Shown in pieces: positions 2-52,635 of a DNA stretch of 64,000 nucleotides. The notes beneath the pieces are model-generated. The model ran no database searches and was not told the origin of the DNA. It worked only from the letters and a program-made list of their open reading frames with translations. Position 1 is the stretch's first letter, and each line of letters begins with the position of its first letter. The position numbers and the translations under genes are program-made. The DNA comes from Aquisphaera giovannonii (GTDB taxonomy: Bacteria > Planctomycetota > Planctomycetia > Isosphaerales > Isosphaeraceae): contig NZ_CP042997.1 of the NCBI RefSeq assembly GCF_008087625.1, positions 9,920,001 to 9,984,000 of the forward strand, written 5' to 3'.

Positions 2-3000
2 CGCCCGCTCTACAAGACCGAGCGCCACCTCTACGCGATCGGCGCGAACCTCGCCCAGGGGAGGCTGGACGTCTCCTGCTACGACCTGATGGCGTCCGAG
101 TCCTGCCTCACCAGCTACCTGACGGTCGCCCGCGGAGACGCCCCGCGGAAGCACTGGTTCCAGCTCGGCCGGCCGTTCATCCGGGCCGCCGGGCGGACCG
201 GCCTGCTCTCCTGGGGCGGGACGATGTTCGAGTACCTGATGCCCCGGCTGCTCCTCCGCAGCCTGCCCGGCACCCTGATGGCGGAGGCCGTCGAGACGGC
301 CGTGGCCCGGCAGGTCGAGTACGGCCGCCAACTCGGCATCCCCTGGGGCGTCTCCGAGAGCGCCTTCGCGGCCCAGTACATCGACGGCGACTACCGCTAC
401 CAGTCCTTCGGCGTCCCCGGGCTGGGCCTCAAGCGGGGCCTGGAGGAGGACCGCGTCGTCGCGCCGTACGCCACGCTGATGGCCACGATGATCGCCCCGC
501 GCGAGGCCCTGGCGAACCTCCGCCGGCTGACGCGGGAGGGGGCCGAGGGGCCCTACGGGTACTACGAGGCGATCGACTTCACCCCCGCGCGGCTCTCGGC
601 CGGGCAGCCCTCGGCGGTGGTGAAGTCGTACATGGCCCACCACCAGGGGATGAGCCTCGTCGCGCTGACGAACGTGCTCCGCGGGGAGGTCATGCCCCGG
701 CGGTTCCACGCCGACCCCACGGTCCGCGCCGCCGACCTCCTGCTCCAGGAGCGGATCCCCCCGGAGACGCCGATCGTCGAGCCCCCGCGCGCCGCGGGCC
801 ACGCCGCCGACGCGGAGGGCGAGGGGGACGGGGCGCCGGCCGGCGCCGGCGGCTCGCTCCTGAGCCGGCGGCTGACGTCGCCGTTCACGTCGGGGCCGCG
901 GACGCACCTGCTCTCCGCCGGCCGCTTCCACGTGATGATCACCAACGGGGGATCCGGCTACAGCCGCTGCGACGGCCGGGACGTCGTCCGCTGGCGGGCG
1001 GACGCGACGTGCGAGCGCTGGGGGCAGTTCTTCTACGTCCGCGACGTGGGCTCCGGGGCGTTCTGGTCCGCGGCCCACCAGCCGACGTGCCGCCCGGCGG
1101 ACGACTACGAGGTGGTCTTCTCCGCGGACAAGGCCTCCTTCCGCCGCCGCGACGGCGAGGTCGAGACCCTGCTGGAGGTCACGGTGTCCTCCGAGCAGCT
1201 CGCGGAGGTCCGCCGCCTGACCGTGACCAACCACGGTCCGGCCCCCCGCGAGGTCGAGCTGACCAGCTACATGGAGCCGGTCCTCGCCCACCCCGGCTCG
1301 GACCTGGCGCACCCGGCGTTCGTGAAGCTCTTCCTCGAGACGCAGTTCGTGCCGACGAGCGAGTCCCTGATCTGCCGCCGCCGGCCCCGGGCGGCCGGGG
1401 AGCCGGCGCACTGGGGCGTGCACGTGATGGCGGTCGACCGCTCGGCGCCGGGCTGCGAGGCCGTCGGGCCGGTCCAGTACGAGACCGACCGCGCGCGGTT
1501 CATCGGCCGCGGCCGGACGCTCGCGGCCCCGGCGGCGATGGGCCCCGGCGCGGCCCTCTCGGGGACGACCGGCCCGGTGCTCGACCCGGCGTTCAGCCTG
1601 CGGCGGCGGTTCCGGATCGCGCCGGGAGGCTCCGCCGTGGCCGGCTTCACCCTGGCCGTCGCGGAGTCCCAGGACGAGGCCCTGGCCCTGGCCGACAAGT
1701 ACCACGGCATCAGCGCCGTGGCCCGGGCCTTCGAGCTGGCGTGGGCCCAACGCCAGGTGGAGCACGGCCACGGCAGCGCCGCCTCGGAGGAGGCCCACCT
1801 GTTCCAGCGGCTGGGGGCCCACCTGCTCTTCGACGGCGCCACCCTGCGGGGCCACGGCCAGGCCCCCCCGGAGGTCGCCTCCGGGGGCGGGTTCGCCGCC
1901 CTGGAGCGCCTCGGGCTGTCGATCTACCGGCCCATCCTCCTGCTCCGCGTGGCGGAATCCGGCGAGCTCTCCCTGCTCCGCCAGCTCCTGGCCGCGCACG
2001 GGTTCCTCCGCGCCCGGGGGCTGGAGTCGGACCTCGTCGTCGTCAACGAGGAGCAGCAGTCCGGCGAGGCCGAGGCCCTCGGCGGCCAGATCGAGGCCAT
2101 GGCCCGGGAGGCCGTCGGCGAGCTCGCCAACGCCCCCGGGGGCGTCTTCATCCTCCGCCGCGACCACCTGGCCGACCGCGAGGCCGCGACCCTGGAGGCG
2201 GCCGCCCGCGCCGCCTTCGACGGCGCGCGGGGCGCCCTCGCCGGGCAGCTCGAGCGGATCGACTGGGCCCGCGCCCTGCCGGAGCCCTTCGAGGCCTCCC
2301 GCCCGGTCCAGGACCGGCCGCCGATGCCGCCTCCCGACGCCGGCCCCCTGCTCTTCCCCAACGGCCTGGGCGGCTTCTCCGAGGACGGCCGCGACTACGT
2401 CATCCTCGCGGGGCCGACCGCGGGCCAGGCCCGCGACGCCGGGGCGGGCCCGCCGCTGCCGCCGGCCCCCTGGGTCAACGTGATCGCCAACCCGTCCTTC
2501 GGGTTCGTCGTCTCCGAGTCCGGCTCCGGCTTCACCTGGGCGGGGAACAGCCAGACCAACCGCCTGACTCCCTGGAGCAACGACCCGGTCATCGACCCGC
2601 CCGGCGAGGCCCTCTACGTCCGCGACGAGCTGACCGGCGAGGCCTGGTGCCCCACCCCGCTGCCGATCCCCTCGGACTCCCCCACCGTCGTCCGCCACGG
2701 CCCGGGGGCCACCACCTTCGCCCGCAACACCCACGGCATCGAGCACGAGCTCTGCCTGGCCGTGCCCCCGGCCGACCCCGTCAAGCTGATCCGGCTCCGG
2801 CTGGGGAACCCCGGCGACCGGCCGCGGTCGCTCTCGGTCACCTTCTTCGCCGAGTGGGTCCTCGGGCCCAACCGGACCTTCGCCGCGGCCCACGTCGCGA
2901 CCGAGCTGGATCCGGACACCGGCGCCCTGCTCGCCCGCAACGCCTTCCGCCAGGACTACTCCGGGCGCGTGGCCTTCGCCGACGTCAACCGCCGGCCCCG

Positions 3001-51819: not shown

Positions 51820-52020
51820 GGACCAGTCCCTCACCTGCCGCCCGCCCCCGCCGCCCGTTTCGATCATCCTACGCCTCATCCCACCCGCGTCCACCACGGC
51901 GGGCGGACATGTCGACGGGCTGGGGGACCGAGGCCATCGGCGAGCCGACCGGGCCCGGCGGCACGCGGTTCGCTTCCTTGTTCCGGATCGGTGCCCATCT
52001 TCGGGAAAGGGGGACGGACC

Positions 52021-52635
52021 ATGCCGCTGAAGATCCTCGTATACTCGGATTACGTCTGACCGTTCTGCTACCTGGCGGAGTTTCCGCTGGCCCAGGCGGT
52101 CCGGGGAAGGGATGTCGAGGTCGAGTGGATGCCGTTCGAGCTCCGGCCCGAGCCGCACCCCACCCTGCGCCCTGAGGGGGAGTACCTCCGCACGGCCTGG
52201 GCGCAGGCGGTCTACCCGATGGCCCGGAGCATGGGCGTGCCGATCGTGCTCCCCGGGGTGTCGCCCCAGCCGCATACCCACCTGGCCTTCGAGGGCTACC
52301 AGTACGCCAGGGAGCATGGCAAGGGGAACGAATACAACCGCCGCGTCCTGGAGGCGTTCTTCGTCGAGGGCCGGGACATCGGCGACGTCGGCGTCCTGAC
52401 GGACCTGGCCGGCGAGGTCGGGCTGGACCGGCCCGAGTTCGAAGCGGCGATCCGAAACCGCACCTATCGGGACGCGCATCGGAGAGCCCTGCATCATGCC
52501 TATCACGACGTCGGGGTGACCGGCGTGCCGATGTTCGTCATCGGCGACCGGAAATTGAGCGGCGTGCAGGACCGCCAGACGCTCGAGGTCGCCATCGACG
52601 AACAACTGGCGAGAAGGGCACCGCGCCGGACCTGA
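52021..52635 (+). CDS. frnE: FrnE/DsbA-family oxidoreductase, candidate selenoprotein (in-frame TGA at 52057-52059)
   Basis: Translation from ATG 52021 gives KILVYSDYV-TGA-PFCYLAEFPL, i.e. the DsbA-like thioredoxin motif CPFC with TGA in place of the first Cys (residue 13). The frame then stays open to 52635, giving 204 residues, normal for FrnE. The body includes FELRPEPHP, HRRALHHAYHDVGVTGV and the cis-Pro loop TGVPMFVIG. A G-rich ribosome site (AAAGGGGGAC) supports ATG 52021. A stem-loop with a GTT loop begins right after the TGA, as bacterial SECIS elements do. I read this as selenocysteine in a UPFC active site. The alternatives are a nonsense mutation or a sequencing error. No selA, selB or selC is visible in this window. 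Confidence 0.75.
52072..52090 (+). promoter_or_regulatory. Candidate bacterial SECIS stem-loop
   Basis: Bases CTGGCGGA pair with TCCGCTGG (six Watson-Crick pairs and two G-U wobbles) around a GTT loop at 52080-52082. The loop starts 20 bases after the TGA and begins with G. Both features match what is known of bacterial SECIS elements (loop 16-37 bases downstream, G in the first two loop positions). Confidence 0.6.

Follow-up and report, generated by a model that had tools for sequence, protein, structure and literature searches.

A predicted selenocysteine-containing FrnE-type oxidoreductase in Aquisphaera giovannonii, with a hairpin common to planctomycete and Bacillales homologues

DsbA-like selenoproteins with a UxxC motif (COG2761/PF01323) were described in 2005 in the Sargasso Sea selenoproteome, according to the available text of that study (PMC1088965), and the novelty that the original prediction attached to such a protein was therefore overstated. 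The available portions of two other papers count DsbA-like selenoproteins in 41 organisms (PMC5029168) and use the name 'DsbA-like protein form 1' (PMC13188914). In planctomycetes, selenoproteomes have been reported for the Porphyra-associated P1 and P2, selenocysteine (Sec) genes are present in Isosphaera pallida and Gemmata obscuriglobus, and horizontally acquired selenoproteins have been noted (PMC4807772); DsbA is absent from the main text of that paper. Our literature search for FrnE as a selenoprotein returned no relevant paper, and the connection between the two is made via COG2761 (PMC1088965). FrnE of Deinococcus radiodurans (DR_0659) is described as a cytoplasmic disulfide reductase, the loss of which increases sensitivity to cadmium and diamide, and regeneration of the active site has been proposed as the role of its C-terminal CxxxxC motif (239-244) (PMC8945050).

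The window analysed here is a stretch of 64,000 nucleotides of the Aquisphaera giovannonii genome (contig NZ_CP042997.1, positions 9,920,001 to 9,984,000). It contains a gene interrupted by an in-frame TGA, with the following features.

52003..52018, plus strand: purine-rich stretch resembling a ribosome-binding site, preceding ATG 52021 (sequence only)
52021..52635, plus strand: FrnE/DsbA-type oxidoreductase gene of 204 codons with predicted Sec (TGA) at residue 13, motif U-P-F-C (Pfam DSBA, FrnE match)
52057..52059, plus strand: in-frame TGA, predicted Sec codon, replacing the first Cys of CPFC (homologue alignment)
52066..52098, plus strand: predicted SECIS element with core 52075-52079/52083-52087 and loop G52080; 52073-52074/52088-52089 form outer pairs, and 52066-52070/52094-52098 a weaker lower helix (conservation, covariance search)
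52129..52635, plus strand: 168-aa fragment of standard gene calling, active site missing (table 11 translation)

The frame runs from ATG 52021 through a single internal TGA, which lies at the first Cys of the redox motif (DYV-U-PFC), to the next stop, TGA 52633-52635, and is otherwise intact for 204 residues, as had been predicted. The purine-rich sequence GGGAAAGGGGGACGG immediately upstream of the ATG resembles the anticipated ribosome site. The expectation that annotation would call only the fragment from 52129 also held, since translation with table 11 gave 168 aa and lost the active site.

The protein belongs to the DsbA family, with a Pfam DSBA (PF01323) score of 110.1 bits against a gathering cut-off of 25.6, and a search of the 10.5-Mb genome detected no second gene with a DSBA domain. 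The closest solved protein by sequence was D. radiodurans FrnE (E 1e-21), whose CPWC aligned with UPFC at residues 13-16. The AlphaFold model (pLDDT 96) placed residue 13 immediately N-terminal to the first helix, and its five best PDB matches were all FrnE structures, with 5cnw at the top (E 4e-14). D. radiodurans FrnE (PDB 5cnw, 5cp1) was thus the best match in both sequence and fold, and it carries Cys where the window protein would have Sec. The assignment to COG2761, which we take to be the FrnE orthologous group, is based on this nearest solved relative with its aligned CxxC, that is, on sequence and fold matches rather than on a COG/CDD model. Another candidate family, the Rcas_1661 family thioredoxin-like (seleno)lipoprotein (NF041057), matched the C-terminal part only and scored 35.6 bits against a curated cut-off of 190, and was rejected.

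The C-terminal CxxxxC of FrnE was absent from the window protein, which ends in RRAPRRT; it is also missing in FrnE of D. maricopensis and S. roseofulvus (PMC8945050). Because the motif is present in many, though not all, FrnE proteins, it does not define membership. Unlike D. radiodurans FrnE, the planctomycete proteins have no CxxxxC tail and so probably need an external reductant. Several Bacillales Sec homologues (L030, L034, L037 and L087) end in CGxDGC, which resembles the regenerating CxxxxC.

The product is most likely a thioredoxin-fold enzyme that reduces or isomerises disulfides through a Sec-Pro-Phe-Cys centre, and it is probably cytosolic, since the N-terminus runs directly into the first strand and leaves no room for a signal peptide. 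Sec13 would act as the nucleophile that attacks disulfides and Cys16 as the resolving residue, with the cis-Pro loop (Pro170, GVPMF segment) adjoining. The in-frame ATG at 52129 raises the alternative that the cell uses only the short protein, with the sequence before it acting as a regulatory leader. However, the N-terminal strand and the active site were as conserved as the rest of the protein in the homologue alignment, with D10, V12, P14 and C16 invariant, and by the AlphaFold model the short protein would miss the first strand and the catalytic helix of its thioredoxin fold, which makes this alternative extremely improbable.

A search of the genome for selA, selB, selD and tRNA-Sec, proposed as a check, detected all four. 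The scores were 475 bits for selA, 331 bits for selB (370 with its C-terminal part, over the cut-off), 350 bits for selD and 77 bits for tRNA-Sec, which ARAGORN also identified as tRNA-SeC (anticodon TCA, 99 nt). The four loci lie dispersed along the chromosome; planctomycete P1 likewise has a complete Sec machinery with scattered genes (PMC4807772). Within the host's family, selA was found in 31 of 45 genomes. The selD gene has an in-frame TGA of its own at the usual SelD Sec position (NCAG-U-AGK), followed by a strong hairpin with a GUC loop (L098, ~2340-2440, minus strand), and would thus be a second, textbook user of UGA as Sec in this genome.

We collected homologues from the best 80 loci of the genome collection and by scanning 397 genomes from the order to which Bacillus L030 belongs. 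TGA occupied the same codon in 46 homologue matches, 38 of them distinct and close, and these 38 (four planctomycete genes including that of the window, and 34 from Bacillales) were set against 82 distinct homologues with Cys. In the 80-locus set, TGA was present at this codon in the planctomycete loci L009, L010 and L011 (76-78% identity) and in ten Bacillaceae loci, and the remaining readable homologues had TGC or TGT. The suggested check of relatives therefore found TGA or Cys at this position, with nearly all TGA frames intact and no random stops. All 12 tested genomes with a TGA gene contained selA, versus 11 of 36 with a Cys gene (Fisher p 2e-5, which is descriptive only because the genomes are related).

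Since the frame stays open if TGA encodes any residue, UGA might instead be read through as an ordinary amino acid, or be reassigned to sense in this organism. Against this, the gene's own terminator is TGA, no other TGA of the window in a UxxC, CxxU or UxxS/T setting resembled a redox protein, the full Sec system is present, and the TGA genes track selA. Moreover, close homologues without TGA all have Cys, the chemical match to Sec, at this position. We consider ordinary readthrough or reassignment very unlikely.

A stem-loop with a G-first loop had been predicted 20 bases past the TGA. The hairpin GCGGA-GUU-UCCGC (52075-52087) was found there with G52080 first in the loop and the 20-nt spacing, but taken alone it was unremarkable. 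Of positions drawn at random from this GC-rich window, ~12% had an equally good stem within the allowed range, the single-sequence folding z-score was only -0.3 (not significant), and the 54-nt fold of the planctomycete homologue L011 favoured another structure. The bSECIS rules, as given in the available text of PMC13188914, are a loop of 3-9 nt, a stem of 4-16 bp, a G within the first two nucleotides of the loop and a distance of 16-37 nt from UGA; as to loop and spacing, the hairpin has a 3-nt loop with G first and then U and lies within 16-37 nt.

The hairpin core GCGGAGNNNCCG lay downstream of the redox codon at constant spacing in 38 of 38 distinct TGA homologues versus 2 of 82 distinct Cys homologues. 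GCGGAG NNN CCG occupied codons +6 to +9 past the TGA in all 38, forming a GCGGA/UCCGC stem closed by a loop of the GUU, GGU or GGC type; the last A-U pair was open in a few TGA genes, such as L032. In the Bacillales TGA genes, the hairpin codons GCG, GAG and CCG were each used in 34 of 34 cases, whereas over the rest of those genes their shares within their codon families were 16%, 30% and 29%. No pair changed on both sides in the alignment of TGA homologues, and compensatory change could not be demonstrated because the core never varies. With a non-significant single-sequence fold and no covariation, the argument for the putative SECIS is one of synonymous-site conservation and absence from Cys genes, and it is through comparison with homologues, and only so, that it becomes compelling. 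A covariance search of the genome with the SECIS model detected this locus (E 4e-9) and no further selenoprotein gene, as expected since SECIS elements differ between genes, and an Rfam search of the window gave no matches.

These comparisons bear on two further explanations of the TGA. A change of a single base would suffice to turn TGC or TGT into TGA by sequencing or assembly error. The probability of this is negligible, since the same TGA is present in three other planctomycete and many Bacillales genomes, all independently sequenced; that TGA and hairpin recur together in four separate planctomycete genomes, as well as in many Bacillales, excludes such an error. Under table 11 the TGA breaks the gene, as in a pseudogene whose redox Cys codon had mutated to a stop. 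Such a mutation would not account for TGA at the same codon in 38 distinct homologues from two phyla with nearly all frames intact, nor for the conserved third codon positions of the hairpin. When the TGA was omitted, dN/dS between the four copies from planctomycetes was 0.17-0.25 (dN ~0.10-0.16, dS ~0.66-0.83), a sign of purifying selection and hence not of a pseudogene, and a genuine decaying copy in Litchfieldia salsa looks different, with a second TGA at the conserved Trp36 and loss of the cis-Pro. We therefore regard a pseudogene as extremely unlikely.

The Sec machinery, the conserved TGA and hairpin, and the link to selA support the prediction that the organism decodes UGA as Sec. The gene almost certainly encodes a DsbA selenoprotein of the FrnE (COG2761) branch in which the UGA codon for residue 13 specifies selenocysteine. 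SelB carrying Sec-tRNA would bind the hairpin, which begins ~15 nt past the UGA, as the ribosome reaches this codon, and would insert Sec13.

The planctomycete Sec proteins formed one fully supported clade within a mostly Bacillota tree. A close copy was present in 3 of the 45 genomes of the host's family (that of A. giovannonii and those holding L009 and L010), L011 comes from a further MAG labelled Gemmataceae, and no close copy was detected at E 1e-40 elsewhere among the genomes sampled from the phylum. This patchy distribution suggests horizontal gain, and the planctomycete gene was probably acquired in this way. Placement of all Sec sequences in one clade was tried and rejected by the AU test (p-AU 0.005), so that several Sec/Cys changes or transfers are needed. 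Because the hairpin is common to separate Sec clades, the sequences favour an ancient Sec form, later transferred and converted to Cys several times, rather than Sec having been gained independently again and again.

Two Paenibacillus Cys homologues (L026 3031-3090 and L027 3031-3090, both TGT) kept the hairpin as GCGGAGGTKCCG, and selA was not detected in their genomes (G452 and G453). These hairpins are likely SECIS relics left after a Sec-to-Cys change. We give an even chance to a broader scenario, in which the FrnE selenoprotein gene with its built-in SECIS moved as a unit between Bacillota and Planctomycetota, across very different GC contents, and turned to Cys where selA was lost, leaving a fossil SECIS as in these Paenibacillus genes.

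Other copies were also observed. The decaying L. salsa selenoprotein gene (L041 3001-3600, the same as L148) is a second copy with TGA at the Sec codon, beside an intact copy (L136). Four Bacillales genomes each contain one Cys and one TGA copy (L129/L149, L135/L151, L139/L154 and L118/L159). Genome G013 of the host's family has a distant (32%) FrnE-like gene in which TGA likewise replaces the first redox Cys (SDYI-U-PFC) but the downstream sequence differs (L105 1515-1600, minus strand); it may represent a separate Sec branch or stem from contamination of G013 (9%).

Compared by description rather than by sequence, the DsbA-like selenoproteins (COG2761) in the available literature texts have the same domain as the window gene, a UxxC with Sec first and a downstream bacterial SECIS; those texts describe neither a member from planctomycetes or Bacillales nor a common hairpin sequence. 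The window gene is thus not a new family, and Sec machinery in planctomycetes was already known. New are this member, the strictly conserved SECIS common to two phyla, the patchy planctomycete distribution and the likely relic hairpins of Paenibacillus; the planctomycete and Bacillales presence, the invariant cross-phylum hairpin and the relics were not found in the available main texts of the literature. The locus adds a well-supported candidate selenoprotein to the planctomycete lineage, and the sole DSBA-domain gene found in a 10.5-Mb genome would otherwise be annotated without its active site. The SECIS of two phyla, together with the likely relic hairpins in Cys homologues, provides a clean natural series on the gain, transfer and loss of a Sec gene.
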